Shown here: positions 1,402 to 20,652 of the stretch, piece by piece
Layout of the letters: each line of letters starts with the position of its first letter
Numbering within the stretch: position 1 is the stretch's first letter
From: Deltaproteobacteria bacterium
Lineage (GTDB): Bacteria > Bdellovibrionota > Bdellovibrionia > Bdellovibrionales > Bdellovibrionaceae
Assembly (NCBI GenBank): GCA_017302835.1
Contig: JAFLCC010000003.1
Span: 248,001 to 312,000 of the forward strand
DNA: 64,000 nucleotides
Direction: 5' to 3'
The notes under the pieces: generated by a model
What the model saw: only the letters and a program-made list of their open reading frames with translations
The model's database searches: none
Told to the model about the DNA's origin: nothing
Translations under genes and position numbers: made by a program

Positions 1402-2448
1402 ATGGCTACTTTAGATGCTAACCCCGTTGGGATTCTAGGTGTGGACTTTGTTGAGTATGCGGGGCCAACAAGTTTTTCATTTGAAAATTTATTTAAACAA
1501 ATGGGTTTTTTAGAAATAGCTAAATCAGATAGCCAGAAATTACATCTGTACAGGCAAGGTCGAATCAGTTTTATTCTTAATCAGGATCCAAATTCATTTG
1601 CAGAAAATTTTGCATTAAGACATGGTCCGTCTATATGTTCGATGGCTTTTAAGGTTCAAGATGCTACGGCGGCATTAAAGTTGGTGCAATCTCGAGGAGC
1701 GCGTGTTTATGAAGGCAAGGAAGGGAAAAAGCTAGTCAATATCCCTGCAATCTATGGGATAGGAGATTCCTTAATTTATTTTTTAGATGAGAAAAATAAA
1801 ACGGAAGTTTATGAAAAAATATTTAAACTCGCTTTTCCTTTAGCTGAACCTAAAGGATTTGGTATGGTCAATGTCGATCATTTTACTAACAATGTTCCTA
1901 AAGGTGAAATGGATAAATGGTGTGATTTTTATTCTCACATTTTTAATTTTAAAAATGTGCGATATTTTGATATCAAGGGGAAACAAACGGGATTACTTTC
2001 CAAGGTGATGCGATCACCCTGTGGTACTTTTTCCATACCTATTAATGAACCTACGGAAGGGAAATCTCAGATTCAAGAATACTTAGAAGAGTACAAGGGA
2101 TCAGGAATTCAACATTTGGCTTTGATTACCAATGATATTTTGAGCACTTTAGAAGTGAGTAAAAATCAGAAATTAGAATACTTGACTCCTCCTCCTAGGT
2201 CTTATTATGAGCTTCTTAAAGATCGACTTCCCATCGTGACAGAGGAAGTAAAAAAATTGGAAGACAATGCGGTGCTAGTGGACGGGGATCATGATGGCTA
2301 TCTATTGCAAATCTTTACTAAAAATGTGATCGGTCCTATATTTTTTGAGATCATTCAAAGAAAAAACCATTTTGGTTTTGGTGAAGGAAACTTCCAAGCT
2401 CTTTTTGACGCTATAGAAAGAGATCAAAAACTTCGTGGTTATTTATAG
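1402..2448 (+). CDS. hppD: 4-hydroxyphenylpyruvate dioxygenase
   Basis: 348 aa, normal length for bacterial HPPD. It converts 4-hydroxyphenylpyruvate plus O2 to homogentisate and CO2, the second step of tyrosine breakdown. Two vicinal-oxygen-chelate halves are visible. The Fe(II) facial triad is recognisable as His160 (VNVDHFTNNV), His238 (GIQHLALIT) and Glu316 (FFEIIQRK). The frame is open further upstream to a GTG at 1345, but the ATG at 1402 has AAGGAGA just before it and gives the family-standard N-terminus, so it is preferred. hmgA follows 51 bp downstream. It is a cytosolic enzyme, likely cotranscribed with hmgA. Confidence 0.95.
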   Translation: MATLDANPVGILGVDFVEYAGPTSFSFENLFKQMGFLEIAKSDSQKLHLYRQGRISFILNQDPNSFAENFALRHGPSICSMAFKVQDATAALKLVQSRGARVYEGKEGKKLVNIPAIYGIGDSLIYFLDEKNKTEVYEKIFKLAFPLAEPKGFGMVNVDHFTNNVPKGEMDKWCDFYSHIFNFKNVRYFDIKGKQTGLLSKVMRSPCGTFSIPINEPTEGKSQIQEYLEEYKGSGIQHLALITNDILSTLEVSKNQKLEYLTPPPRSYYELLKDRLPIVTEEVKKLEDNAVLVDGDHDGYLLQIFTKNVIGPIFFEIIQRKNHFGFGEGNFQALFDAIERDQKLRGYL

Positions 2449-2499
2449 AGAACTGAGTATAAAGAGTGTATTCGTTGAATTTTAATGAAGGAGGTTGTT

Positions 2500-3609
2500 G
2501 TGCATCAGTATCAACAAGGTCGATTTACAACCCAAGGACATAAGGGGATTCCTGATAATCATTTTGAAGAAGAGCAAGGTCGCAAAGGGTTTTTTGGTCC
2601 CGTATCTCACTTGATTAAGCCTCAACCTAGTACTCGATGGAAATACATCGAGGGTCCTCTGAAGCCCCATTTGTATGATTTAGTTGAAATAAGCAAGCAT
2701 TATAATCAATGGCAAAGATTATTTTATAATACGGATGCAGGTGTTTATCAACTTTGGCTTCCTAAAAAAAATCCTGATGAAATCAAATCTTTTCGAAATG
2801 CTGATGGGGATACATTGTATTTTTGCCATAAAGGGTCTGGGGAAATATTCACAGAGTATGGTTTGTTAAAATATTCTCCGGGGCAATACATTTTAATGCC
2901 AAAGTGTTGCCAGCATACTTTTATAACTTCAGAGGAATCACAATTCTTAGTCATTGAATCGAAAACGAGTGGTTACAAAGAACCAGACCGAGGTATGGTA
3001 GGTCGAAATGCTTTTTATGATCCTGCGGCCTTTGGTAAACCTGATTTGGATTTGATGCAGGCACGAAAAAAGGAACTTAATTTAATTGTAAAGACCATTG
3101 AGGTTAAACGAGCTGGAGCATTAACAAAATTTTTATATGAGGATTGTGTTTACGATACCGTCGGTTGGAAGGGCGATTTTTTTCCTGTGACATTACATAT
3201 CCATGATATGATGCCCATGTTGTCGGCTCGAGTTCATCTTCCCCCCAGTGCCCATACGACTTTTGTTGCCAGTGGGTTTGTTGTTTGTACCTTTTTGCCA
3301 AGACCCTTGGAATCAGATACGGATGCCTTGAAGGTTCCTTTTTATCACCAAAATATAGATTTTGATGAGGTGTTATTTTACCATGCTGGGGATTTTTTCA
3401 GTCGCGATAATTTACATGCTGGAATGGTGACTTTGCATCCAGCAGGATTTCCCCATGGCCCTCATCCCAAAGCGGTTCAAAATGTCCATTCGAAAACTCA
3501 TACCGATGAAGTAGCCGTGATGATTGATACCCTTCAACCACTTCATGTAGATACTATTATGGAAAAAGTGGAGTTAACAAATTATTGGCAAAGTTGGATG
3601 AAAAAATGA
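2500..3609 (+). CDS. hmgA: Homogentisate 1,2-dioxygenase
   Basis: About 369 aa, shorter than the roughly 430-440 aa enzymes of Pseudomonas and animals. It opens the homogentisate ring to maleylacetoacetate. The N-terminus (HQYQQGRFTTQGHKG) matches the family opening, and the metal region shows FYHQNIDFDEVLF, then VTLHPAGFPHGPHP. His283, Glu290 and His319 are the probable Fe ligands by comparison with human HGD. AAGGAGG at 2488-2494 sits 5 bp before a GTG at 2500, which fits better than the ATG at 2485 that precedes the Shine-Dalgarno sequence. The stop overlaps the ribD ATG (ATGA). No maleylacetoacetate isomerase or fumarylacetoacetase gene is nearby. Confidence 0.9.
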   Translation: MHQYQQGRFTTQGHKGIPDNHFEEEQGRKGFFGPVSHLIKPQPSTRWKYIEGPLKPHLYDLVEISKHYNQWQRLFYNTDAGVYQLWLPKKNPDEIKSFRNADGDTLYFCHKGSGEIFTEYGLLKYSPGQYILMPKCCQHTFITSEESQFLVIESKTSGYKEPDRGMVGRNAFYDPAAFGKPDLDLMQARKKELNLIVKTIEVKRAGALTKFLYEDCVYDTVGWKGDFFPVTLHIHDMMPMLSARVHLPPSAHTTFVASGFVVCTFLPRPLESDTDALKVPFYHQNIDFDEVLFYHAGDFFSRDNLHAGMVTLHPAGFPHGPHPKAVQNVHSKTHTDEVAVMIDTLQPLHVDTIMEKVELTNYWQSWMKK

Positions 3610-4901
3610 GTCTTGTAAAGGATATCATTGATATCCGAGCCAAAATTTTAGTAAAACGGTTTCATCTTGAAAATGAGTTTTTAAATCTAGATAAAAATAA
3701 TTTGAGAGTTACTAATCCCTGGTCAACCTTAGACGCTATGATAGTTGCTATTCTGGAAGCATACAGAGGTGCTGTACACGTTGCTCCTAATCCTATGGTA
3801 GGCTGTGTGATTCTAGATAAAAATGGGAACTTTTTATCAAAAGGTTTTCATCATTTTTTTGGTGGTCCTCATGCAGAGATAGAGGCTATCAAAGATATTC
3901 CTGTAAAGACTTTGGAAGGAGCGCATGTGATTGTGACTCTAGAGCCCTGTGCCCATGAGGGACAGACTCCTTCCTGTGCTAAAACTCTGGCTCAAATGCC
4001 CATTGCCAAAGTAACCTATGGGTTGAAGGATCCAAATCCTTTGGTAGCAGGGAAAGGTGCTGCCATTTTAAAACAAGCGGGTAAAGAAGTTTCTATCTAT
4101 ACTCCTGAAAGTTTCGATCACGATTTAAATACCGAGCTTGAAGAATTGGCAGAGAATTTTTTACTGAATTATCGAGAAAGCAAAGCGTTTGTCGCTTTAA
4201 AGTGGGCTCAAAGTCTAGATGGGAAACTGGCCATATCAAGCGGAGAAAGCCAATGGATCACGAACCTCTTATCAAGAGATTACTCACAATATTTACGAAG
4301 TATTTATGACGCGACAATGGTAGGTGCGAATACCATATTAATGGATAATCCTCAGCTCAATATACGTCGCCATGGAATCAGTAAGGAAAATAAATTAATT
4401 ATTTTTGATCCTAAAGCGCGGGTGTTTGTAAATAGGGGCAAATTAAAATTTTATCAGTCACATCAACAGAAAAATATTTATTATTTAATTGATAAAGAAT
4501 ATTTCAAAAACTTGAATCAGAATCAGAATCAGAATCAGAATCAGAATCAGAATCAGAATCAGAATGAAATACTTTCAAGGGAAAATTCAATTGAAATCGA
4601 AGAGCAAATAATTAAGATTGAAAAAAAAGATTCTCAGTATGATCTAAATCAAATCAATAAGTTACTTTTTCAAAAGGGAATAAAATCTATTCTGCTTGAA
4701 GGTGGAAGTAAGACCCTTCAGTATTTTTTAAGTTCTCATCAGGCGAATCGGGTTTATGCTTTTATTGCTCCTATGATTCTTGGAAAAGGTCAAAGTTACT
4801 CAGAGTCCATTGAGCTATCGAAAATGGAGGATAAACTTATTCTTAAGAATTCTAAAAATATAAATTTTGAAAATGATATTTTACTAACAGGAGTTTTTTA
4901 A
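3606..4901 (+). CDS. ribD: Riboflavin biosynthesis bifunctional deaminase/reductase
   Basis: 431 aa. The N-terminal half is the zinc pyrimidine deaminase: PNPMVGCVI, HAE at 89-91 and PCAHEGQTPSC at 114-124. The C-terminal half is the NADPH-dependent reductase (KWAQSLDGKLA, VGANTILMDNP, LLEGGSKTL). It carries out two successive steps from the GTP-derived pyrimidine toward riboflavin. Oddities: about 40 extra residues before the usual RibD start, and a (NQ)8 run encoded by the AATCAG repeat at 4515-4562 in the middle of the reductase domain. The ATG overlaps the hmgA stop (ATGA), implying coupling. No other rib gene and no FMN-riboswitch-like leader was seen nearby. Confidence 0.93.
   Translation: MSLVKDIIDIRAKILVKRFHLENEFLNLDKNNLRVTNPWSTLDAMIVAILEAYRGAVHVAPNPMVGCVILDKNGNFLSKGFHHFFGGPHAEIEAIKDIPVKTLEGAHVIVTLEPCAHEGQTPSCAKTLAQMPIAKVTYGLKDPNPLVAGKGAAILKQAGKEVSIYTPESFDHDLNTELEELAENFLLNYRESKAFVALKWAQSLDGKLAISSGESQWITNLLSRDYSQYLRSIYDATMVGANTILMDNPQLNIRRHGISKENKLIIFDPKARVFVNRGKLKFYQSHQQKNIYYLIDKEYFKNLNQNQNQNQNQNQNQNQNEILSRENSIEIEEQIIKIEKKDSQYDLNQINKLLFQKGIKSILLEGGSKTLQYFLSSHQANRVYAFIAPMILGKGQSYSESIELSKMEDKLILKNSKNINFENDILLTGVF
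4515..4562 (+). repeat. (AATCAG)8 tandem hexamer inside ribD
   Basis: Eight perfect copies of AATCAG, followed by a partial AAT. It encodes Asn-Gln repeated eight times. The unit length is a multiple of three, so copy-number change would lengthen or shorten a flexible linker without shifting the frame. Perfect identity between copies suggests recent slippage. Confidence 0.97.
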
Positions 4902-8418: not shown

Positions 8419-10344
8419 TTAATTGGATAACCCTACTTCGGTAAGCAGTAGGCTCCAGAAATGTCGTTGTTTTTCAGCTTGGACTAAAAACATTTTCTCA
8501 CCAGATAAATAAATAGCTTTGTGGGACTTGGCATAGGCCCGAGCTAACGAATCTTCTCGGTAATTTAAATCGATAATATACTTTGGACTCATATTTAGAT
8601 TTGGCATAGTTGCTTGAGGACCTCCAGCCCAAATAAGAACATCGATATCAATGTGTGGATTTCCTGGGTTTTCATTCGCATCTTTGGTCTGATTTCTGGG
8701 CGCGCCCTCGCGGATGGAGTATTCAATAGCTTGGGGAAAAGTTTTCTTGATAACGGGTAAAGTTCCTCCTCCTCCCCAAATCAATACCTTCAAATTTTGA
8801 CTTGATTCGTGAGTTGTTACGGCAGAAGCTAAAGCGGCAAACCCTTCTAAGTCGGTATTGATTCCCTCAAGAAGATTCTTTTCTGGAAAAATAAAAAGAG
8901 TATTGAGTGAAGCTAGGTCTTTATGAGTTAACGGATGAGATTTATCATAAACGTGATTGGCCACCAATGAGTAAGCCTTACGCTTCAATGGAGAAGTGAC
9001 CGCTGCAGCGATAAGACCTAGCTGTATGAGAAAAACCATGGCCCTATCAAATTCATCTTCACTCATATCTATAGCCAATACGGGAAAATGATATTTAGAA
9101 AAAAAATTTTCTTGTTCTAAGGGGGTTCTAGATAAGTTGACGGGACTGCCAAGAACGGCGGCAAAGTGCTTACAAGTTGAGATTTGACTAAGCCATTGAT
9201 AAAGTGAAGGCTGATCGAGGGCTGTTCCTTTAGTTGAACTTTTCCAGAAATTTATTTTTTGACGGCCTTTCATCCATTGACGAAACCAAGTCCAGCGACC
9301 TGTCTTTGATCGAGGCAAAATGGATCTGTTTGTTGGGTCATTCTGTTGCCATTCCCACAATTGCTGCAAATCGGAAAATGATTCTATCATTGGAGAGGCT
9401 TTTAAATGAGTTTCTTTACCAGAAAAAACGGAGAGTCTCTCTAAAAATTGAGTTAAATTTTCTTGGGGCAAATAATCGTGCAAGGAAATAATTGTAGGTT
9501 TTAGTTTATTTAAATTAAGAGGAGAACCTAGTTCGAGTGCCCAATCCAAATCCATAGAGATAGCTTGAGAAGTCAAGGCTATTGAATTTTTGAAATTTAT
9601 AAAATTCTTTTCGCTTTCTATGATTTTAATTTTATCACGAAAGCTTAAAATAAAATGTTTAGGAGAAATGGTCATATAAAACAATTTAAACTCTTCAAAA
9701 GGAAGTAAATCGTCACGAAATTCAAAACCAGATTCTTGAACCTTATACAGATAAGCCCACATTCGATTTAATTCTTTTGTCAGAGTAAGGTAACTAGAAT
9801 TCTGCATGTTAAATTCAATGGGTATTTTAAAAAGGGATTTTTCTGTGTCATTTTCTGTTCTGATACCTTCGGGCATCAGATAGATTTCATCATGGTGGAT
9901 TTCAAAAGCGGCTGCTCTGAGTTGAGCTCTTTGAAAGAACTCAGCTAAATCAGAAACTTCTGGATCTAATCTTGGGCGATCAAAGAAGATGCGTCCATAC
10001 TCATCCGCTGGCCTTTGAATCCATATTTTGTGAAGGTGAGGAGGGATTTCCTTTACTGGAAATCCACCACCAAGAGTTAAGACAAACTGTGGATGTTGAA
10101 GGATTATCTTTTTAAAAACGTCGAGCTCATATTTTCGGAAGGTAGCTTCACCTTCGATTTCAATAATGGATGAGATGGTTTTTCCTAGATGTGATTCTAT
10201 TTCCTGATCTAAGTCTAAAAAAACAAAAGATGAATCTTTCCAATAGTTTTTAAGCCGATCGCGAAAAGAGGTCTTCCCAACCCCACGTTGCCCAAAAACA
10301 ACGATTTGTTTTGAATGAAACTCAATTAATGGAACTCTGTTCAT
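8419..10344 (-). CDS. Trifunctional shikimate kinase / 3-dehydroquinate dehydratase / shikimate dehydrogenase (AroK-AroD-AroE fusion)
   Basis: 641 aa with three consecutive domains. Residues 12-165 are shikimate kinase: Walker A GQRGVGKT 18-25, DLD 44-46, FRKYE, LGGGFP 91-96. Residues about 180-390 match type I dehydroquinate dehydratase: EFR 208-210, FR 235-236, MDLD 264-267, catalytic His289 (SLHDY), Schiff-base Lys315 (HLKAS), Arg355, and TALDQ 374-378. The His-Lys distance (26) and Arg-to-TALDQ distance (19) match E. coli AroD (27 and 19). Residues 394-641 are AroE: SRTP 405-408, Lys454 (TSPLK), NTD 496-498, WGGGG, Gln622. The ATG overlaps the aroB stop (ATGA). Together they cover dehydroquinate to shikimate-3-phosphate. 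Substitutions such as the degenerate SxSP motif and the missing Glu86 equivalent leave the activity of each domain to be tested. Confidence 0.88.
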   Translation of the reverse strand: MNRVPLIEFHSKQIVVFGQRGVGKTSFRDRLKNYWKDSSFVFLDLDQEIESHLGKTISSIIEIEGEATFRKYELDVFKKIILQHPQFVLTLGGGFPVKEIPPHLHKIWIQRPADEYGRIFFDRPRLDPEVSDLAEFFQRAQLRAAAFEIHHDEIYLMPEGIRTENDTEKSLFKIPIEFNMQNSSYLTLTKELNRMWAYLYKVQESGFEFRDDLLPFEEFKLFYMTISPKHFILSFRDKIKIIESEKNFINFKNSIALTSQAISMDLDWALELGSPLNLNKLKPTIISLHDYLPQENLTQFLERLSVFSGKETHLKASPMIESFSDLQQLWEWQQNDPTNRSILPRSKTGRWTWFRQWMKGRQKINFWKSSTKGTALDQPSLYQWLSQISTCKHFAAVLGSPVNLSRTPLEQENFFSKYHFPVLAIDMSEDEFDRAMVFLIQLGLIAAAVTSPLKRKAYSLVANHVYDKSHPLTHKDLASLNTLFIFPEKNLLEGINTDLEGFAALASAVTTHESSQNLKVLIWGGGGTLPVIKKTFPQAIEYSIREGAPRNQTKDANENPGNPHIDIDVLIWAGGPQATMPNLNMSPKYIIDLNYREDSLARAYAKSHKAIYLSGEKMFLVQAEKQRHFWSLLLTEVGLSN

Positions 10345-11354
10345 TTTTTCAATTCCGAAAGGGCATTGATTTTGATTTCTTGAACACAAGGTTTGCCGAT
10401 GTCTTTTAATAAGACAAAGCGAATCGTGCTGTTGTGGTTTGCTTTCTTATCCTGCCGAAGCTGTCGCTCTAGCTGTGGAGTTTTTCTTAAGAGTCTTAAG
10501 GCCTCTTGTTTTGAAATTAAATGATTTTGAATCAAAGAACTGTCTTGAATTTGTTGATAACTTTTTAAATTTAAAGTGTTGAATTTTAAAGAAAGCTCAA
10601 GGGCCAAACGGAGCCCATAGTTCACGGCGACTCCATGGGGCAGGTTATGAATGGACTCGAGAACATGACCATAGGTGTGACCAAAATTTAAAAAAAATCT
10701 TATTCCTTTAGTTTCGAAAGGATCTTTTTTCACGATTTTATATTTATATTTTATCAGCTCTGGCAAAATTTTCCAAAGTGCGTCCTCATTAAAAGAACTC
10801 AGACCTGAAGTTTTTTTCCACAAGTTACCGCCCTCAAGTAAGATGGTCTTTAAAACTTCACCCATTGCGTCTTTGACTCGTTCTTGGGGTTGGGTCAAAA
10901 GAAGAGACTTAATTAAATAAATTTTATTTGCTGGATAAAAAGTACCCATTTGATTTTTATAACCGCCGACATTGAGAGCTGTTTTTCCTCCATGGGAAGA
11001 GTCGATGGCCGCAAGCCAAGTGCTGGGAATATGCACTAGAGGAACGCCTCGCTTAAAAACACTAGCCATGAAACCAGCAAAATCACCAAGGCTGCCCCCG
11101 CCTAAGGCGACTAGAGTAATGTTTTTGGTTTTTGTTTTTTCGATTAATTTTAAAATAGAAATAAAATGTTTTTCAAAAGGCTTAAGTTGTTTGAGCTCCT
11201 CTCCGGCTCGAACGCCAAGACGATGAGGAAAGGTTTCAATCCAGGTCTTGGTCGCTGCATTTTTTAAAAGAAATTGATCAAAAATAAGTACAGGGTGATC
11301 AGCAAGAGTGGTTGAGTTTGGAAACTTCTCTGTGAAAATGAGTTTTGATTTCAT
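10341..11354 (-). CDS. aroB: 3-dehydroquinate synthase
   Basis: 337 aa, slightly short of the usual 350-370. It converts DAHP to 3-dehydroquinate with NAD and a divalent metal. Family signatures are clear: VALGGGSLGDFAGFMAS for NAD binding, HIPSTWLAAIDSSHGGKTALN, KNQMGTFYP, a metal-binding GEVLK, and FGHTYGHVLE. It sits between the aminotransferase (6-bp gap) and the AroK-AroD-AroE fusion (4-bp overlap), so its product is used directly by the next gene's product. Assignment is secure. Confidence 0.95.
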   Translation of the reverse strand: MKSKLIFTEKFPNSTTLADHPVLIFDQFLLKNAATKTWIETFPHRLGVRAGEELKQLKPFEKHFISILKLIEKTKTKNITLVALGGGSLGDFAGFMASVFKRGVPLVHIPSTWLAAIDSSHGGKTALNVGGYKNQMGTFYPANKIYLIKSLLLTQPQERVKDAMGEVLKTILLEGGNLWKKTSGLSSFNEDALWKILPELIKYKYKIVKKDPFETKGIRFFLNFGHTYGHVLESIHNLPHGVAVNYGLRLALELSLKFNTLNLKSYQQIQDSSLIQNHLISKQEALRLLRKTPQLERQLRQDKKANHNSTIRFVLLKDIGKPCVQEIKINALSELKK

Positions 11355-11360
11355 AATGCC

Positions 11361-12569
11361 TTACTTTTTAATTTGGTCAGGGTTCCCATTTAATGTGAAA
11401 TAATTAATAATTCTTTGTAGCCCCTTATCTAATAAAGTATCTGAAATGGTCACAGAAAATCTAAGATGGTACTCACAGCCAAAAGAAGAACCAGGAACCA
11501 GAGCCACTCCGAATTGATTTAAAAGTTCATCACAAATTTGCGAGGAAGTTTTTGATTTATCAAGAACTTCCATCCACACATAGAAGGCTCCCTGTGAAGA
11601 AAACAACTTAATACCTGGACAGGTTTGTAAGATTGAAATAGCTCGTTGGTGTCGAATTTTAATGAGTTCTTTCAATTCATTTACATATTGATTTTCATTT
11701 TGCAGAGTTTTTTCAAGAGCAATTTGTATAAAATCAGGCATACAGGTTAATGTTTGACTTTGAAAATCAGTAAGCTTGTTGATGATTTCGGAACTTGCTA
11801 TCACCCACCCAAGCCGCCACCCTGTTAAAGCAAAACTTTTAGAAGCACCATGAACGAGGATCACTCGTTGATGATGTTCTTTATCTAAAACATCTAGTAA
11901 ATGAGGACAGCGAGAGTCATCAGAAAAAATTAACTGGTTATAAATATCGTCGCAAATAACCATAAGGTCAGGATGGGCCGCAATCACCTCTGCTAATTCT
12001 ATAAGTTCGGATTTTGAGTAAATAGCACCCGTTGGATTTTGTGGAGAATTTAACAGTAAAATTTTTGTTAAAGCCTTCGTTTTTTTTGAAAGCTCGTTTT
12101 TTAATTTTGCAGCAGTTAATTTATAATTTTCTGAAGCCGAGCAAGGAATGACTTGAATTGAAGCTCCTGATAGTTTTGCCAAGGTGACATAGCTTACCCA
12201 GTAGGGGGATGGAATGATCACTTCACAAGTTTCATCACCTAAAATTTGGAAAAGAGAATACAGACCAAATTTGGATCCTGGTGAAATAACTACATTTTCA
12301 GAAGACCAATTTTGTTTATATAGTTGGTTCATCCATGTGGAAATTATTTTTCTTGTGCTCGCTAAACCTTGAGCAGAGCCATATTTAGAATCATGGGTGT
12401 TTAAATAATTGATAACTTCCTTTTTGGTGCTTGAAGGTGGTTTTGAATCCGGTTCTCCAACAGAACCTAAGACAATATCTTCACCGTTTTTAATTTGATT
12501 TTGTGCTTTCAGAGTGGCATTCATGGTGGCTGAGGCGACTAATTGATTAGCTCTTTTTGAAAAAATCAT
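11361..12569 (-). CDS. Class I/II PLP-dependent aminotransferase (aspartate/aromatic type)
   Basis: About 403 aa, fold type I. Visible motifs are SPGSKFGLYSLFQIL, NSPQNPTGAIYS, CDDIYNQLIF (Asp and Tyr contacting PLP), HGASKSFALTGWRLGW with the Schiff-base Lys, and a C-terminal HLRFSVTIS where the Arg would bind the substrate carboxylate. The longest frame begins at a TTG inside the aroC end. The ATG at 12569 has AGGA 8 bp upstream, lies 10 bp after the aroC stop, and is preferred. Flanked by aroC and aroB, it probably transaminates 4-hydroxyphenylpyruvate or phenylpyruvate with Glu or Asp. That specificity is inferred from context; aspartate aminotransferase is the alternative. Confidence 0.88.
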   Translation of the reverse strand: MIFSKRANQLVASATMNATLKAQNQIKNGEDIVLGSVGEPDSKPPSSTKKEVINYLNTHDSKYGSAQGLASTRKIISTWMNQLYKQNWSSENVVISPGSKFGLYSLFQILGDETCEVIIPSPYWVSYVTLAKLSGASIQVIPCSASENYKLTAAKLKNELSKKTKALTKILLLNSPQNPTGAIYSKSELIELAEVIAAHPDLMVICDDIYNQLIFSDDSRCPHLLDVLDKEHHQRVILVHGASKSFALTGWRLGWVIASSEIINKLTDFQSQTLTCMPDFIQIALEKTLQNENQYVNELKELIKIRHQRAISILQTCPGIKLFSSQGAFYVWMEVLDKSKTSSQICDELLNQFGVALVPGSSFGCEYHLRFSVTISDTLLDKGLQRIINYFTLNGNPDQIKK

Positions 12570-12579
12570 TTTACATTTC

Positions 12580-13629
12580 CTAAACTTTGTCTTGCCGCTG
12601 CCACAAAACATGGTCAGTGATGACCAAGGCAGCCATGGCTTCTAAAACAGGGATCGCTCTTGGAATAATACACGGATCATGTCTTCCTTTTTTTGCTGTA
12701 TCTAAAACAGTGGCGGTGGGTTTAAAAAAAACTCGAAACAAAATGGTCTCGCCGGTACTAATACCTCCACGAATGCCTCCATAGTGGGATTGGTCCGTTT
12801 GCAAATGAAATTCAGATCCTTCGGTTTGGCTGACATCATGACCAGCACCGAGCTCAACTCCGGCAGTGGCGCCTATACTCATAAAGGCGGCAGCTAAATC
12901 AGATTTAAGTTTGTGAAATACGGGTTGCCCCAAGCCAGCAGGAGGATTTTGAATCACCAGGACGGCTTCGCCGCCATAGGATTTGCCATCTTTTTTAGCT
13001 TGCAATAAAAGAGTCTCAATTTTTTTATCTAAATCAAGATCAGGGCAACGTGAAGGGAAAGCATCGATTTTTTCAGAAGAAATCAGATTTTTTAGAATTT
13101 GTTCTGAATCTTTAGCAGTCAAGGAAATGGGCCCAATTTGTTTAGAAAAAGCAAAAATATTAATTTGCGGAAATTTTTGCTTTAAAAACATCTTGGCAAC
13201 AGCGCCGCCCATCACTCTGGCCAGGGTTTCACGCCCTGAGGACCTTCCGCCACCACGAGGATCTGTGTGACCAAATTTTACTTTCCAGGTATCATCGGCG
13301 TGACCAGGCCTTGGTTTCTGAGCGATTTCTTTATAATCATGGGATCTGGCATCTTGATTTCTAACAAACATGGCTATGGGCGTCCCTAGGGTTTTTCCTT
13401 CATAAACTCCACTTAAAACCTCTGGAATATCTAATTCTTGGCGATCGGAAACAATGGAGATGTCATTTACTTTTTGTCCTGGCCGACGACGGCTCAATTC
13501 TTTTTTTAAAAAAGTCTCGTCAAAAATAATTTCTGAAGGGCATCCATCAATAACAACACCCAGTCCGGTGCCATGACTTTCCCCAAAACTCAAAATTTGA
13601 AATCGATTACCAAAAATACTTCCACCCAT
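12580..13629 (-). CDS. aroC: Chorismate synthase
   Basis: 349 aa, typical length. It converts EPSP to chorismate with reduced FMN. The N-terminal GNRFQILSFGESHGTGLG, the RRRPGQ motif, the GHADDTWKVKFG and RGGGRSSGRETLARV segments and the C-terminal KKGRHDPC are all diagnostic. It is first in the aroC-aminotransferase-aroB-aroKDE block. No strong Shine-Dalgarno sequence precedes the ATG, but the N-terminus aligns with the family start. The 51-bp gap to the M48 gene behind it makes a separate promoter possible. Confidence 0.96.
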   Translation of the reverse strand: MGGSIFGNRFQILSFGESHGTGLGVVIDGCPSEIIFDETFLKKELSRRRPGQKVNDISIVSDRQELDIPEVLSGVYEGKTLGTPIAMFVRNQDARSHDYKEIAQKPRPGHADDTWKVKFGHTDPRGGGRSSGRETLARVMGGAVAKMFLKQKFPQINIFAFSKQIGPISLTAKDSEQILKNLISSEKIDAFPSRCPDLDLDKKIETLLLQAKKDGKSYGGEAVLVIQNPPAGLGQPVFHKLKSDLAAAFMSIGATAGVELGAGHDVSQTEGSEFHLQTDQSHYGGIRGGISTGETILFRVFFKPTATVLDTAKKGRHDPCIIPRAIPVLEAMAALVITDHVLWQRQDKV

Positions 13630-13680: not shown

Positions 13681-14664
13681 TTATCCTTTTTTACGAAGCG
13701 CTTCAGAAATAAAAGACTCACCAAAGGAATAAATTTCTTTGGCTAGGTTTACCAGGGGATCTTGGCTTGATTTAAAATTGTTTTTATATTCTTCATAACT
13801 TTTCATAAAATCATCTTTGACTTTCGTTTGAGACTCTTCACTTCTGCGAATGTAATTACCTGATTTAATTTTGGAATAGTCCCCGGAATCGTGCCATTTT
13901 CTTAATTCAGAAATTCTGAGTACTAAAAAGGGATGGCTTAGGAAAATTAAATTTAAAATTTTAAAAAAACTATCTCCTAGATCTCCACTTTCCTGATACT
14001 CTTTGGCTTGCATTTCAAATTCCTCTAAATTGAATTTGGATTTTTCCATGGCACCAGCTAATTTAAATAAAACGGTGAGTGAAACTTCCAAATCTTGACT
14101 AGCTAAAAGTCCAGCTCGATCTGCAGATAACTCTGATTTTCTGTCCCATTCTTTTAATGCTAAGACCAGGGGGAGAGTGGCAAATTGAAAAAGAGACGGA
14201 AAGAAACCAGTTAAGATCCATTGGAGGATCCAATTAATGGTTTTATATAAAGAATGTCCTGAAATAATATGACCTAATTCATGGGCTAAAACGGTTCTTA
14301 TTTCATCACCAACCAATCGATCAAGCAAGGCAGTGTTAATAACAATAAATGGTTTCTCAATCCCAACAGCCATAGCATTGATGCGGGCATCTTGTATCAA
14401 GTAGAGTTCTGGGACAGGACAATCAAGGATTTCACAGGCTTTTTTTAATTCCTCATACAAATCAGGTCGTTGGTTTTCATTAATTCTGACGGCGCTGGCT
14501 AAAAAAATGAGTCGAAGAGGTTTGTCTCTGAGAAAGCCAAAAATTTTCTTAATCAAAAGATCAATTCCTGGTATTTTTCTTAGAGCATTCAGAGCGGCTC
14601 TATCAGAAGAGTGTTCAAAATTTATGGAACTTATATCTGGAAAAACTTGATAGGGTTTTGTCAT
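13681..14664 (-). CDS. M48-family metallopeptidase
   Basis: 327 aa. Zinc site HELGH at 128-132 (VLAHELGHIISGH), with the third ligand Glu178 in SELSADRAG. Hydrophobic segments around 143-172 suggest membrane association, as in HtpX and Ste24 relatives, but the N-terminus lacks the usual paired transmembrane helices. The C-terminal third is charged. It lies 12 bp downstream of the Ser/Thr kinase gene and completes a TPR-kinase-protease unit between the two aro blocks. Membrane protein quality control is the common role of the family; a link to kinase signalling here is inference. Confidence 0.9.
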   Translation of the reverse strand: MTKPYQVFPDISSINFEHSSDRAALNALRKIPGIDLLIKKIFGFLRDKPLRLIFLASAVRINENQRPDLYEELKKACEILDCPVPELYLIQDARINAMAVGIEKPFIVINTALLDRLVGDEIRTVLAHELGHIISGHSLYKTINWILQWILTGFFPSLFQFATLPLVLALKEWDRKSELSADRAGLLASQDLEVSLTVLFKLAGAMEKSKFNLEEFEMQAKEYQESGDLGDSFFKILNLIFLSHPFLVLRISELRKWHDSGDYSKIKSGNYIRRSEESQTKVKDDFMKSYEEYKNNFKSSQDPLVNLAKEIYSFGESFISEALRKKG

Positions 14665-14676
14665 AAAGTCCTCAGG

Positions 14677-16470
14677 CTAGGCAACATTGTTTAAGAGATC
14701 ATCGAGTTCTTTTTTAGCTTCTATGTGAAGTCTATATTCTGTCTCTAAATCTTGCATGGAATCAACAACTCTTTTCAAAATAAGAGTGTCATCGACAGTT
14801 TGGGTATTTAATTGTAAATTCATTAAAAGAGACTCCGCTTTTAAAATGGCAAATGACAGTTGATTGAAGGAGGCTTCGTTTTTAAAGAGAAAATTTGAAT
14901 GTACATCTAAATCCTTTTGATAGATTTGTCTTAATTTTTCAAAAGTGGAATCAATTTCTAAAATTGATTTGAGCAAACAAACTAAAGTAGATTCAATTTG
15001 TAATTTAACTTCTTGGGAATGTATCTGATTCCAGAGGCGATGGCTCGTTCGAAACAAATTGACTACATTTTTTCTATAGTTATCATGAATCAAGCTTTTA
15101 TAGGTTGAAAGCATCGAATCAATTAAAGCTATATTCAGTTTTCCAGGATTATTTGTATTTCGAAATATGGGCTTTACGCTTTCTGAACGAAGATAGAATA
15201 AAGAGAAAAGAAAAAAAGCAATAGTCACCCAGAAAAAATGAGGACTGTATTGTAGGCCAACCCATGTTCCCAAGATCAAATTTCCCATGAGAAAAAGGCT
15301 CATATTTTTAGGGGCAGCTCCAAAAAATATTTTTGGAGTGACCACCTCCGTGACAATACCTGTGTTTAGTAAATCTATCCCAATTTTATCTTGTAATTCA
15401 GAATTTATTCTCACAAAAGGTAACAAACCCTCCTTGCACTCATTTATTTTGGCCATGCTTAATGATGTGGGCGTAAAAAATTTTTGAATAAAATCAGAGC
15501 TTGATAGTTCATATCCATTCCTAATAAAAAGTAATGAAGTTGATTCTTTTTCTGTTTCTTGAGAAACAAGACAGCCTAAACAGGAACCTGATGGTAAAGC
15601 GTTTTCATTGCCACAAATGAAGCAATATTTTTCCTCATTTTGTTCATTGGAGAGGGCTGTTGGAGCTTTTAAAAAATCCAACAATGTTTGTGCGGTCAGA
15701 AAACGATTTGCAGCGTAGAAGGCGGTCGATTTCTTTATGATTTTGCTTAAAAACGAATCCGCTTTTGGTTCAATTAACTTGGGATCAAAACCATTTTCAA
15801 ATTGACTGACTACATGATTTAAAGAACTTTGGATGGCTTTTCTTCCTGTCAAAGCATAGTACATGGTTAGCCCTAAGGAATAGATATCCGTGCGACAGTC
15901 ATAGGGGTTATTTTGGATCACTTCAGGAGACATGTAATCCAATGTCCCATTCATGGAGATAGTCATAGACGATGTATTTTGCCCATAGACTTTGGCGGAT
16001 CCAAAATCTGCCAAAACAGCATCACCAGTCTTTCTAAACAAAATATTTTGTGGCTTGATATCTCTGTGAATGATTCCATTTTGATGGGCTATCACTAATG
16101 CATCTGCCATTTGTTCCATTATTTTCTTTACTAAAACAGGGTTCAAGGCTCCTTTTTCTTTTACAAGATCAGATAAACTTCCTCCGTCTATAAATTCCAT
16201 AGCTAAAAAAAGCCAGTTGTCCTCTTCAAAAAAATCAAAAAGCTGAATCACAAACTGATGGTGAAGTTTTCTTATGGTTTGCATTTCACGTTTTACTTTT
16301 TCTTTTATCTTCTCAAAGGCACCCGGTGGAGGATAAAAACATTTAACGGCGACTATTTGATTTAGGCTCAAATCGCTAGCTTTATAAACAGTAGAATAAC
16401 CACCACGGCCAATTTCAGCTAAGATCTCATAGCGATTATTGATGGTCTTACCGATGAGTTGATCTGCCAC
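14677..16470 (-). CDS. Membrane-anchored Hanks-type Ser/Thr protein kinase with zinc ribbon
   Basis: 597 aa. The kinase domain occupies about 14-268: GRGGYSTVY glycine loop, Lys43, HRDIKPQN with catalytic Asp137, DFG at 155-157, and an SPEV segment in place of APE. A four-Cys ribbon follows (CFIC 283-286, CLGC 297-300). A hydrophobic hairpin at about 390-430 is probably the membrane anchor, and the last roughly 150 residues are long helices with coiled-coil character. The start is GTG, immediately after the TPR gene stop, with AAGGAG 6 bp upstream. No PASTA repeats and no adjacent PP2C phosphatase were seen. The substrate is unknown. Confidence 0.92.
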   Translation of the reverse strand: MADQLIGKTINNRYEILAEIGRGGYSTVYKASDLSLNQIVAVKCFYPPPGAFEKIKEKVKREMQTIRKLHHQFVIQLFDFFEEDNWLFLAMEFIDGGSLSDLVKEKGALNPVLVKKIMEQMADALVIAHQNGIIHRDIKPQNILFRKTGDAVLADFGSAKVYGQNTSSMTISMNGTLDYMSPEVIQNNPYDCRTDIYSLGLTMYYALTGRKAIQSSLNHVVSQFENGFDPKLIEPKADSFLSKIIKKSTAFYAANRFLTAQTLLDFLKAPTALSNEQNEEKYCFICGNENALPSGSCLGCLVSQETEKESTSLLFIRNGYELSSSDFIQKFFTPTSLSMAKINECKEGLLPFVRINSELQDKIGIDLLNTGIVTEVVTPKIFFGAAPKNMSLFLMGNLILGTWVGLQYSPHFFWVTIAFFLFSLFYLRSESVKPIFRNTNNPGKLNIALIDSMLSTYKSLIHDNYRKNVVNLFRTSHRLWNQIHSQEVKLQIESTLVCLLKSILEIDSTFEKLRQIYQKDLDVHSNFLFKNEASFNQLSFAILKAESLLMNLQLNTQTVDDTLILKRVVDSMQDLETEYRLHIEAKKELDDLLNNVA

Positions 16471-17082
16471 TTAAAACTCCTTGTCTAACCGTTCTAAAGT
16501 TTTAACCGCCGTTTGATGAAAGTAGTCATTATTTTTGTACATGGTTAAAAACATTTTAAGGTGTACTTTGGATTCAGAGTATTGTTTAAGTGCAAATTCG
16601 GACATACCCGCATGATAGACCGCTTGATAGTTTTCGGGCCAGTATTTGAGAACTAAATTCATTATTGGACCTGCGGATTTATCATCTCCAGAATCAGCAA
16701 TGGGATGACCCACATTAAAGACAATGCCTGCTGCTTGGGCTTGGCTTTGTTGAGGCACAGACATAATGATTTGATCAGCTTCTTCAATTCGGGCCGCTAA
16801 AATATAGCAAGCAGCTTGGTAACCTCTGCCTTCCACATTTGATGGAGGTGGATCCTTTTTCATTAGGGTATCGATCTCTAGAGTATTGCAAAATTGTTTA
16901 TTCTTTTTAAACCAATCATTGCCGCCTGTGAAAGGCATGACAATTTCAGGACTACCACGAGTGTAAACAATTTTCGCAGGGAGAGGAGTGGACACTTCTG
17001 GTTTTTTAATGGAGACATGAGAGACTAAAATATAACCCGTCAAAGCAAAATGTAAAATACTCAGAAAAAAGATCTTTTTCAT
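16471..17082 (-). CDS. Exported/anchored TPR-like protein
   Basis: 203 aa. A hydrophobic N-terminal segment (KKIFFLSILHFALTGYILVSHV) is a signal peptide or anchor. The C-terminal half carries TPR-like helical pairs (WPENYQAVYHAGMSEFALKQ, then SESKVHLKMFLTMYKNN). It directly abuts the kinase gene, whose GTG follows its stop codon, so the two are cotranscribed. It may present partners to the kinase or protease at the membrane, which is inference. The ATG at 17082 begins the signal sequence. Confidence 0.75.
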   Translation of the reverse strand: MKKIFFLSILHFALTGYILVSHVSIKKPEVSTPLPAKIVYTRGSPEIVMPFTGGNDWFKKNKQFCNTLEIDTLMKKDPPPSNVEGRGYQAACYILAARIEEADQIIMSVPQQSQAQAAGIVFNVGHPIADSGDDKSAGPIMNLVLKYWPENYQAVYHAGMSEFALKQYSESKVHLKMFLTMYKNNDYFHQTAVKTLERLDKEF

Positions 17083-17151: not shown

Positions 17152-18348
17152 CTAGCAGTCTAAACCAAGGACTTGCCAAAACTCGGGAAAACTTTTGCTC
17201 ACGACTTCTGGGTGTTTTATTTTAATTGGAAATCCTTGGGATAAAATCAAGGATGCGGCAAATGCGAGTCGGTGATCATGGTCTGTATCATACTCGAATG
17301 GCTGGGCATTTGGTTTGCTTTTTTTTGCAGGCTGAATGATCATACCATCGGTAAGAGGAGTATTTTCTACGTTAATAGCATTCAATAAATCGGCTATTTT
17401 GGCAATGCGATTTGATTCTTTATGAATCAACTGGGGAGCACCAAAGAGTTTTGAAGGTGTCGAGGCAAAAGCACACAAGACAGCAAGTACGGGAAATAAA
17501 TCGGGACAAGAATTTAAATTAGCGTCTAAGCCTTTAAAGTGTTTGACGGGAAAAATTTTTAAAACTTGTTCATTTTCATTTAAAAGAAAAGGTATTTCCA
17601 TACGTTTAAAAAAATCCAAAAACTCGATATCGGGTTGAAGGCTTGGGTAAGGAAACTTTTCAAATTGTGCTTCTCCGTTTAGAACAGAAAAGGCGGCTAC
17701 GGCAAATAAAGAGCTTAAATCACTTTCAGCCTGGTAACTATTAACCTCTACTTGGCTTTTGGCAGGGATGACTAATTTATTTTCCGAAAACGTAATTTTC
17801 ATTCCTAAAGCTTTTACAAGTTTAATAGTCATTTGAAGATAACCTTCACTCATCGGAGATCCTATCATTTTTAAATTTAAATCTTGATTTAGATTCCAGG
17901 CATTCAAGAGAATTCCAGAAGCAAACTGACTAGAGACATTGCGATGAACCTCCAGTGGCTGAGAAAGATTTTTCCAACCCTCGGAATGCAATATCATGCG
18001 ATCTTTTGAAAGATCATAAAGAACTCCCAATTTAGACAATAAATCTAAAAGATCTTGTTGTGGCCTCTGGAAAAGTCTTTCGCTGCCTTTTAAAATATGT
18101 TTTCCTGGGATGCGGCTTAGGCGCAGGCCTAAAAAGCGAAGAACCGTTCCCGCGGCTCCACAATCGAATTCTTGACAAAGATTTAAGGGTTCATTTTTCA
18201 GCTGATGAATGGCGTGAACCATTTTGACAACATCATCACAGTTGGAAGATCCTTCAATTTTTAATTTTTGAGAATAAGAAGAGCAAATTAAAGCTCTATT
18301 CATAATGGACTTAGAAGCAGGGATAATTCCTTTAAAATGAAACTTCAT
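17152..18348 (-). CDS. aroA: 3-phosphoshikimate 1-carboxyvinyltransferase (EPSP synthase)
   Basis: 398 aa, a little shorter than the common 420-440. It joins shikimate-3-phosphate and PEP. Recognisable parts are PASKSIMNRALICSSYS, FDCGAAGTVLRFLG (where many enzymes have NAGT), SERLFQRPQ, SSQFASGILLNA, and the ESNRIAKIADLL and DHDHRLAFAASL catalytic stretches. The start ATG is 1 bp past the aroF stop, so tyrA-aroF-aroA form one tight unit. The degenerate NAGT motif is worth noting for glyphosate-type sensitivity but does not weaken the assignment. Confidence 0.94.
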   Translation of the reverse strand: MKFHFKGIIPASKSIMNRALICSSYSQKLKIEGSSNCDDVVKMVHAIHQLKNEPLNLCQEFDCGAAGTVLRFLGLRLSRIPGKHILKGSERLFQRPQQDLLDLLSKLGVLYDLSKDRMILHSEGWKNLSQPLEVHRNVSSQFASGILLNAWNLNQDLNLKMIGSPMSEGYLQMTIKLVKALGMKITFSENKLVIPAKSQVEVNSYQAESDLSSLFAVAAFSVLNGEAQFEKFPYPSLQPDIEFLDFFKRMEIPFLLNENEQVLKIFPVKHFKGLDANLNSCPDLFPVLAVLCAFASTPSKLFGAPQLIHKESNRIAKIADLLNAINVENTPLTDGMIIQPAKKSKPNAQPFEYDTDHDHRLAFAASLILSQGFPIKIKHPEVVSKSFPEFWQVLGLDC

Positions 18349-18349
18349 T

Positions 18350-19399
18350 CTATTTAGTTACTTTCATTTGAGGGATGCTTGTTTGCACATTTCTTCCCAT
18401 GATTTTTCCCATTCCTACAATTTTTTCCATTAAAGACTCAAAGTCACTAGGCAACAGGGCTTGGGGGCCATCGGAAAGGGCTTCTTCGGGCTTATCATGA
18501 ACTTCGATAATTAAAGAATCAGCACCGGCAGCCATTCCTGCCAAGGCCATAGGGGCCACTAGGTAACGATGACCTGTACCATGACTGGGATCCACAACCA
18601 CTGGAAGATGAGTTAAACTTTTGAGAATGGGCACCACGTTTAAGTCCAAAGTGTTTCGTGAAAACTGAGTATCAAAGGATCTAATTCCTCGCTCACAAAG
18701 AAGCACCTTGCTGTTTCCACCCGCCAAAATATATTCGGCACTCATCAACCATTCTTCGACAGTGGCGGACATTCCTCGTTTGAGTAAAATAGGTTTGTCA
18801 ATTTTTCCGAGCTCTTTGAGCAAAGCAAAGTTCTGCATGTTTCTGGCGCCTATTTGAATGATATCCACATAATCCAACATCATTTTTAAGCCATCATAGT
18901 CCATGGCTTCGGAAACAATAGGCAAACCAGTTTCCTTTGAGGCCATTTGTAAAATTTTGAGTCCATCCAAACCCATTCCCTGAAATGCGTAGGGGGAGCT
19001 TCGAGGTTTAAAGGCACCGCCGCGAAGGACTGTGGCTCCCGCTTTTTTGACAGCTTTTGCGATGCGCATGGTTTGATTTTCACTTTCGACGGAACAAGGA
19101 CCAGCCATCACATTAAAATGTTTGGGGCCAAATAAAACCCCCTTAATATTAAATTCGGTCCCTTGTGGCTTTGCCGCTAAGGCGGCTAATTTAAACGGCT
19201 TTGAGATTCTGAGAACACTCTCGATTTCTGGAAAAACTTCAAATGAATTTAAAGAAATTTTCTCTGTTTTTCCTAACACGCTCACCGTCATCTGCTCACG
19301 TCCTTCGACAATATGAGGACTAGCGCCCAATTCTTTTATCTTATTTAAAACATCTTGGATATTTTCTGGCTTTAATCCTCTTTTAATAATGATGATCAT
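18350..19399 (-). CDS. aroF: 3-deoxy-7-phosphoheptulonate synthase (DAHP synthase, type I-beta)
   Basis: 349 aa. An N-terminal ferredoxin-like or ACT-like regulatory domain (residues 1 to about 75) precedes the TIM barrel, as in the Thermotoga-type enzyme. Signatures are AGPCSVES, GGAFKPRSSPYAFQG, QIGARNMQNFALL, LLKRG and DPSHGTGHR. It commits PEP and erythrose-4-phosphate to the shikimate pathway. The N-terminal domain would allow feedback control by an aromatic amino acid or chorismate/prephenate; this is inferred from relatives. Its ATG overlaps the tyrA stop (ATGA). Confidence 0.95.
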   Translation of the reverse strand: MIIIIKRGLKPENIQDVLNKIKELGASPHIVEGREQMTVSVLGKTEKISLNSFEVFPEIESVLRISKPFKLAALAAKPQGTEFNIKGVLFGPKHFNVMAGPCSVESENQTMRIAKAVKKAGATVLRGGAFKPRSSPYAFQGMGLDGLKILQMASKETGLPIVSEAMDYDGLKMMLDYVDIIQIGARNMQNFALLKELGKIDKPILLKRGMSATVEEWLMSAEYILAGGNSKVLLCERGIRSFDTQFSRNTLDLNVVPILKSLTHLPVVVDPSHGTGHRYLVAPMALAGMAAGADSLIIEVHDKPEEALSDGPQALLPSDFESLMEKIVGMGKIMGRNVQTSIPQMKVTK

Positions 19400-20652
19400 G
19401 GCTGTTTCCTTTTTTTGTATATCTTTTCGTAAATAAACTGTGCTTTGATAAATAATTCCTTCAAATGGCTTTGTTGAGAGGACGATCCTTCAACCACCTT
19501 TCTCACATATTGAAAATTTTTTTCAAACTGAGTCATGGCCGTTGTGATAAATTGATTATTTTTTCTAATAATAGGCTCCCACATTTTATAATCAGATCCA
19601 CTGAGCCTTAAGAAATCTCTGGCAGAACTTGGAATCAAAGAATACAAGTCATCGGTATAATTTTTATCCAAGGTTATTCCATAAACCATAGATAGGAGTT
19701 GAGTCAAATGGCTTGAATAAGCCAATCGTTCATTGTGCACTTCCCATGGTGTGATGACAACTTCAGCTCCTAATTTTTTAGCAAGAATTTGGGAGGCTTC
19801 CAGCGCTAGATTATCTACATTTTCAGAAGGTGAAAGGCATAGGGTTTTTCCATAAAACAAATCACCTTGTGCGGCTTGGTATCCGCTTAGTTCTTTTCCT
19901 GCTAATGGGTGAAAACCGATAACATTGTCTATGGGTTCTTGAACGCTTCCCAGATTTAAAGTCAGCACGTTCTTTTTAGTTACGGCTTTCCCAAATTCAG
20001 CATTCTTATCGATGGGGGCTGCTAAAAAAATCACATTTAACTCGTCAGAAAGCTTGTTGGTGAGATTGTCAATTGAAACTAACTGGAATTTCGATTGAGT
20101 TTTACTTTCATTCCATTTTTCGAACTCGATCTTGTCGAGGTGCGGGTCATGGATCAAAAAGTTCCATTCGGGAAAGGATTCCTTAAGTGCTAAGGCTATG
20201 GAGGCGCCAATGAGTCCAAATCCAAAAAAACCAAAAGACCCTTTCTTTTTAAGAAGCGAGTTGGGCGAGGATTCTGAAATAAGCGATCGTGCCTTTTCAA
20301 TATTTCTAAAAAAATCAATCATTTTTATAAATAAGGATTGAATTTCAGAATCATTTAAAAAATGACGTTTTGTTTTTGTTGTTTTTTCTATAATTTGTTG
20401 TTCTCTTAATGGATCATAGACATCAATTAAATTATTTTTTTTCCATTCACCAACTTTAAATACTAAAGAAGCTCTTTTGTCGAACAATTGAATTAGTTGC
20501 TGGTCTATGAAATCAATTTCATTTCGCAGTGATTGCAGAGAAATTTCTTTGGTAGGATTGGTAGGAGACGATTTTTTATTATCAATCATTTTTCTCATCT
20601 TGTTCCAAGGTTTTGTTTTAACTGGGTTTGTATTATATGTACTTTCGGACAT
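19396..20652 (-). CDS. tyrA: Bifunctional chorismate mutase / prephenate dehydrogenase
   Basis: 418 aa. An AroQ-type chorismate mutase helix bundle (LRNEIDFIDQQLIQLFDKRASLV, residues about 40-125) is followed by an NAD-dependent prephenate dehydrogenase (GFFGFGLIGASIALAL, VIFLAAPI, GFHPLAGKE, catalytic-type HNERLAYSSHLTQL). It turns chorismate into 4-hydroxyphenylpyruvate, the substrate of the hppD product at 1.4 kb. The first 35 residues are polar and unlike the family; starts at 20598 or 20589 are possible alternatives, and no clear Shine-Dalgarno sequence decides. A TATAAT hexamer (minus strand, 20695-20700) lies about 43 bp upstream, suggesting the operon promoter is there. Confidence 0.92.
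   Translation of the reverse strand: MSESTYNTNPVKTKPWNKMRKMIDNKKSSPTNPTKEISLQSLRNEIDFIDQQLIQLFDKRASLVFKVGEWKKNNLIDVYDPLREQQIIEKTTKTKRHFLNDSEIQSLFIKMIDFFRNIEKARSLISESSPNSLLKKKGSFGFFGFGLIGASIALALKESFPEWNFLIHDPHLDKIEFEKWNESKTQSKFQLVSIDNLTNKLSDELNVIFLAAPIDKNAEFGKAVTKKNVLTLNLGSVQEPIDNVIGFHPLAGKELSGYQAAQGDLFYGKTLCLSPSENVDNLALEASQILAKKLGAEVVITPWEVHNERLAYSSHLTQLLSMVYGITLDKNYTDDLYSLIPSSARDFLRLSGSDYKMWEPIIRKNNQFITTAMTQFEKNFQYVRKVVEGSSSQQSHLKELFIKAQFIYEKIYKKRKQP

Follow-up and report, generated by a model that had tools for sequence, protein, structure and literature searches.

The AROM protein of fungi and protists joins five shikimate-pathway domains in the order DHQS-EPSPS-SK-DHQD-SD; bacteria mostly have single-domain enzymes (PMC6851490, PMC9074039). 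In a 64,000-nucleotide stretch of a Bdellovibrionaceae genome, hereafter the window, one gene had been predicted from its letters to encode the last three of these domains in the same order: shikimate kinase (K, AroK), type I 3-dehydroquinate dehydratase (D, AroD) and shikimate dehydrogenase (E, AroE). The locus thus raises three questions: whether the gene, here called aroKDE, encodes these enzymes, whether the cell has any others for the same steps, and whether the order shared with AROM reflects common descent.

A three-domain gene in an aro cluster

The open reading frame occupies exactly the interval originally given for it, 8419-10344, and its strand, which had been left unstated, is minus, with the ATG at 10344 and the stop at 8419. 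The proposed coupling to aroB (B) is visible in the sequence as an ATGA at 10341-10344 that is shared by the aroB stop and the aroKDE start. Genes for steps 1, 2, 6 and 7 of the shikimate pathway lie in the same cluster (Table 1). Between aroC and aroA (A), at 13681-17082, we recognised by eye an HtpX-like protease, a serine/threonine kinase and a TPR protein. Elsewhere in the window, 3585-4901 encodes, again by eye, a RibD-like protein whose reductase part contains a (QN)n run that may be a repeat prone to slippage.

Table 1. Shikimate-pathway features of the window and larger fusions in related genomes
Feature	Location	Strand	Basis
aroKDE, trifunctional: shikimate kinase - type I 3-dehydroquinate dehydratase - shikimate dehydrogenase (predicted)	8419..10344	-	ORF and translation, 641 aa
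Shikimate kinase domain, residues about 10-170	9835..10317	-	Pfam SKI E 7e-14; 20-orthologue alignment
Type I 3-dehydroquinate dehydratase domain (predicted), residues 172-392	9169..9831	-	Isolated-domain fold; profile match to 2ocz
Shikimate dehydrogenase domain, residues about 392-641	8422..9171	-	TIGR00507; Shikimate_dh_N; VIA 2hk7
aroB, 3-dehydroquinate synthase	10341..11354	-	Pfam DHQ_synthase E 4e-28, DHQS_C E 8e-22
Class I/II aminotransferase (aspartate/aromatic type), within aro cluster	11361..12611	-	Pfam Aminotran_1_2 E 1.5e-67
aroC, chorismate synthase	12580..13629	-	Pfam Chorismate_synt E 3e-106
aroA, EPSP synthase, upstream in cluster	17152..18348	-	Pfam EPSP_synthase E 1e-52
aroF, DAHP synthase	18350..19399	-	Pfam DAHP_synth_1 E 2e-76
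Chorismate mutase - prephenate dehydrogenase	19396..20652	-	Pfam CM_2 E 2.5e-17, PDH_N E 9e-11
A-K-D-E tetrafunctional fusions (predicted)	Loci L031, L034, L035, L036, L037, L038		
AroB-AroA fusions, Bradymonadales	Loci L151, L152, L200, L201, L202, L204, L206, L207, L212		

The identities proposed for the outer two domains held. The kinase domain is the sole one of the three to exceed a curated cut-off (SKI, E 7e-14). The dehydrogenase domain is matched by NCBIfam TIGR00507 (E 5.5e-14, with a score far below the curated cut-off) and, in its substrate domain, by Pfam Shikimate_dh_N (E 9e-5, below cut-off), and NCBIfam NF006802, a model of AroD/AroE fusions, covers residues 207-630 (E 2e-12), scoring 46.7 bits where the cut-off is 598. 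With SKI as the one exception, then, scores fall below curated cut-offs, indicating that the domains are strongly diverged. In VIA structure comparison the dehydrogenase domain best matches the Aquifex enzyme 2hk7 (Z 21.2).

Residue conservation was read from an alignment of 20 aroKDE orthologues at 31-48% identity. Invariant in the kinase are K24 (P-loop), D46, R70, G92, G94, R123 and R143, and the alignment displays the full kinase signature: the P-loop (G21/K24), shikimate-binding Asp and Arg, the GGG motif (G92-G94) and the lid Arg. T450, P452, K454, N481, D498 and Q622 are invariant in the dehydrogenase, which has both a substrate-binding and a dinucleotide domain and whose catalytic pair K454/D498 we take to be equivalent to K65 and D102 of E. 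coli AroE.

The middle domain

A search of the middle segment with Pfam DHquinase_I (PF01487), suggested in the original prediction as a check, gave no match in the aroKDE protein. Nor does the family rank among the 25 that the 20 orthologues match most frequently, and no examined genome of the order Bdellovibrionales contains a match. PF01487 is a threshold on sequence and no functional criterion; the AroD assignment rests on fold and residues.

A profile built from the 20 orthologues over residues 172-392 found as its best PDB match the dehydroquinase 2ocz (E 9e-4), followed by further type I dehydroquinases. Modelled alone with AlphaFold2, these residues form an eight-stranded (beta/alpha)8 barrel (pLDDT 90), the TIM barrel that had been expected of the segment. 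VIA comparison of this model placed type I dehydroquinases, including the AROM and plant domains, in all of the best 41 rows (Z 15.1-12.8), ahead of the first barrel of another kind, a pyruvate kinase (Z 11.6). Type I AroD of Salmonella works through the Schiff-base lysine K170 and the catalytic H143, plus Glu46, Arg48, Arg82, Arg213 and Gln236; K315 and H289 of aroKDE are presumably the counterparts of K170 and H143. E208, R210, D212, R236, H289, K315, R355 and Q378 are invariant in the 20 orthologues, with equivalences taken from the 2ocz profile alignment for E208 to H289 and the lysine region and from motif position for R355 and Q378. Together, the confident fold, the structure comparison and the invariant catalytic residues predict that the middle domain is a type I dehydroquinate dehydratase using His289 and Lys315, as first proposed. 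Since catalytic and binding residues of all three enzymes are invariant across the orthologues, no domain appears to be decaying.

A sole copy, fixed across an order

The window had been noted to lack a separate aroD or aroQ, and this extends to the whole host genome (99.98% complete). Its one SKI match and one Shikimate_dh_N match both fall within aroKDE, neither DHquinase_I nor DHquinase_II matches anywhere in it, and a genome-wide search for other recognisable aroK, aroD, aroQ or aroE genes found none, so the gene is not a redundant copy. Because aroKDE is the sole candidate in the genome, it must perform steps 3-5 if the path from DAHP to the conversion of prephenate is to be complete. Some relatives seemed to carry a second shikimate kinase; we rejected these candidates, as the extra SKI matches are short P-loop matches.

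The fusion was found in 128 of 148 relatives, all 128 among the 141 genomes of Bdellovibrionales and none among the seven sampled outside the order; Bdellovibrio bacteriovorus (NZ_CP102930.1) is one of the carriers. The type II enzyme AroQ occurs in 4 of the 13 Bdellovibrionales genomes without the fusion and in 0 of the 128 with it. Three of the four are the sole sampled members of one family, in which separate aroF, aroA, aroE, aroC, aroK, aroB and aroQ genes form one cluster (L156, L157, L158 in G078, G083, G072). Grouping the AroB of this family with the Bdellovibrionales type is rejected (p-AU 3e-5), which suggests that the fusion was replaced there by separate genes, with an AroB from another lineage. 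The other nine genomes of the order without the fusion lack AroQ as well. Aromatic amino acid synthesis may be missing from five almost complete genomes of the order and class (G069, G073, G141, G142, G143), which lack KDE, AroQ and AroE. In one genome without KDE (G121), a strong SKI match in a 691-aa ORF was discarded as a shikimate enzyme, the remainder resembling threonine synthase by eye.

A second order, Bradymonadales, also has the K-D-E fusion: Lujinxingia vulgaris and 19 others among 116 relatives carry it, at 21-23% identity, and the main dehydratase active-site residues are kept there too. Scanning a genome collection with the 20-orthologue alignment through one P-loop pattern, with thin sampling outside the two orders, returned at least 80 loci; the same scan with the single aroKDE protein returned no match because its peptide patterns are genus-specific. 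We read the fusion as a long-established, fixed character of both orders. One Bdellovibrionales-type aroB-aroA-aroKDE-aroC locus lies on a contig labelled Planctomycetota (L114, JAFGQW010000125.1), probably a mislabelled or mixed bin.

Proposed function

We hold with high confidence that aroKDE is a predicted trifunctional enzyme and the only one for steps 3-5, that its fusion is old and fixed, and that the B-A-K-D-E order was most likely assembled independently. In the middle barrel Lys315 would form a Schiff base with 3-dehydroquinate, and His289 would serve as acid/base in its dehydration. The product, 3-dehydroshikimate, would be reduced in the C-terminal domain by means of Lys454/Asp498, and shikimate would be phosphorylated by the N-terminal P-loop domain. 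Intermediates may pass between the domains. As the cell's only enzyme for steps 3, 4 and 5, aroKDE would work with separate AroF, AroB, AroA and AroC proteins from the same cluster.

One domain might instead be non-catalytic, a scaffold or sensor only, with another enzyme doing its step. The middle domain, the most diverged and without a family-model match, would be the natural candidate, and there is a precedent in Candida albicans Aro1, whose dehydroquinase is inactive and is replaced by the type II enzyme Dqd1 (PMC9074039). Yet none of the seven dehydratase active-site residues varies across the order, and the main ones are also kept in Bradymonadales; moreover, the genome has no AroQ or second AroD, and within the order AroQ is confined to genomes without the fusion. 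We therefore regard a non-catalytic domain as very improbable. An artefact, whether read-through of neighbouring genes, mis-assembly or a decaying copy, is barely conceivable, given uninterrupted ORFs of similar length in more than 100 assemblies made independently, some of them closed chromosomes, for example that of B. bacteriovorus.

Gene order and larger fusions

In most relatives the locus reads aroB-aroA-aroKDE-aroC, the AROM order followed by the last enzyme (the tally counts loci, and some genomes enter twice). In the lineage of the window aroA has moved away, leaving aroB adjoining aroKDE. Eight genomes (G006, G025, G076, G081, G085, G093, G095, G101) have an in-frame A-K-D-E fusion, interrupted in G101 by a contig end; the proteins have 978 to 1138 residues. 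In one of them (L031) the end of AroA runs into the P-loop with neither a linker nor a start codon between, and both there and in L034 Pfam finds EPSP_synthase, SKI and Shikimate_dh_N in a single chain. A further candidate, L033, was rejected, its aroA being in a different frame.

Bradymonadales have fused the other end of the series. An AroB-AroA gene of 732-793 residues was checked in nine genomes, and in three loci (L200, L201, L202) it directly precedes aroKDE, leaving one gene boundary short of the AROM order. Genomes with AroB-AroA also carry another AroB-like gene, about 620-680 aa long (e.g. L208). Taken together, the K-D-E, A-K-D-E and B-A fusions mean that all four AROM junctions are fused somewhere in bacteria. 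Short of the five-domain AROM chain, the window protein joins three domains, some relatives join four (A-K-D-E), and Bradymonadales divide the five between a B-A and a K-D-E chain. A Bradymonadales relative (L209, G235:C182:24000-31000, ORF 1571-4702) encodes a predicted tetrafunctional protein of 1044 residues in a different order, D-E-A-K, with a normal DHquinase_I match (E 6e-19), and its aroB ends inside the start of the D-E-A-K gene. This order is independent, showing that large shikimate fusions arose in bacteria more than once.

Descent relative to AROM

The original prediction left it open whether the gene bears on the origin of AROM or on convergence, and proposed domain trees against AROM. 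We built these for AroB, AroA and AroE, and AROM grouped with these bacteria in none. Bdellovibrionales and Bradymonadales form one clade in each (100/99 for AroB, 100/99 for AroA, 100/97 for AroE), and AROM falls outside it every time. Forcing AROM into the clade was rejected for AroA (p-AU 0.0075), not for AroB (p-AU 0.275) and not for AroE (p-AU 0.311), where the test is weak, with 133-136 AROM residues usable. The trees thus favour convergence, and shared descent with AROM is contradicted for AroA.

The competing account is that fusion and operon do share descent with AROM: a partly fused bacterial B-A-K-D-E operon would be the source of the eukaryotic gene and its order, AroA would have been replaced later, and the bacteria would keep AROM-like assembly steps. 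The identical five-domain order speaks for it, as does the fact that each of the four junctions is fused in one or another of these bacteria. Five genes have 120 possible orders, and a match to AROM is unlikely for one random draw (1/120); these odds are weakened because the comparison is post hoc and bacterial aro operons are non-random. AROM (6hqv) is also the best whole-protein Foldseek match (E 7e-20) of the full aroKDE model (pLDDT 89, pTM 0.90), and the AU tests leave room for shared descent in AroB and AroE. Against this, AROM joins plants and gammaproteobacteria in the AroA tree at 99/96 and is separated by a 100/99 branch in the AroB tree, and the bacterial AroB and AroA profiles rank several bacterial enzymes over AROM. 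DHquinase_I covers AROM yet misses the middle domain of aroKDE. The predicted placement of AroD and AroE likewise resembles that of plant DHQ-SDH (412 residues, 3.4 Å, Z 19.6) and disagrees with AROM (rmsd about 18). Shared descent therefore seems to us very unlikely. The position of AROM outside the bacterial clade, the rejection for AroA and the independent D-E-A-K protein make independent assembly the likelier source of the shared order, and we take it as the likeliest reading.

Implications

In Bdellovibrionales the dehydroquinate dehydratase step is missed by standard family models, and pathway surveys may consequently score these predators as auxotrophs for aromatic amino acids. A survey of soil Bdellovibrionaceae describes amino acid auxotrophies as widespread (PMC10665431), to which the chorismate step may or may not contribute. 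Two things lay beyond the reach of the original prediction: the fixation of the fusion throughout an order, and the completion of the AROM order by aroA and aroB in relatives. B/A/KDE, B/AKDE and BA/KDE form a natural series to set against pentafunctional AROM, with an independent D-E-A-K elsewhere. The series allows a test of whether the B-A-K-D-E order is functional or a coincidence, and whether or not fusion helps flux. In work on Chaetomium AROM, as cited in PMC9074039, throughput was no better than that of the separated domains.

Comparison with known systems

We found no earlier description of a K-D-E fusion in the open-access papers searched, and a brief mention in subscription papers or annotations is possible. 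In a survey of multi-domain EPSP synthases, two domains were usual for the bacterial ones (PMC9394408). Bacterial AroK-AroB fusions (NF010556, NF010627) resemble aroKDE in joining an N-terminal kinase to another shikimate enzyme, but their partner is AroB; this type is found in Myxococcota relatives and is absent here. The Chlamydia-type AroD/AroE fusion (NF006802) is colinear with aroKDE over residues 207-630 but has no kinase. Plant DHQ-SDH (AroD-AroE, PDB 2gpt/2o7s) has the same D-E order and, in our model, the same relative placement of the two domains; it too lacks a kinase domain, and its identity to aroKDE is about 16-17%. AROM/Aro1 (PDB 6hqv, 7u5s, 7tbv) differs in having five domains in one chain, where the window protein has three with aroB and aroA as separate genes, in its 14-16% identity, in the packing of dehydratase and dehydrogenase in the model and in an AroA of different lineage. 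The proposed correspondence with its last three domains nonetheless stands, in domain identities as in order: both have kinase, type I dehydratase and dehydrogenase in succession, and adding the neighbouring aroB and aroA gives the full B-A-K-D-E order.
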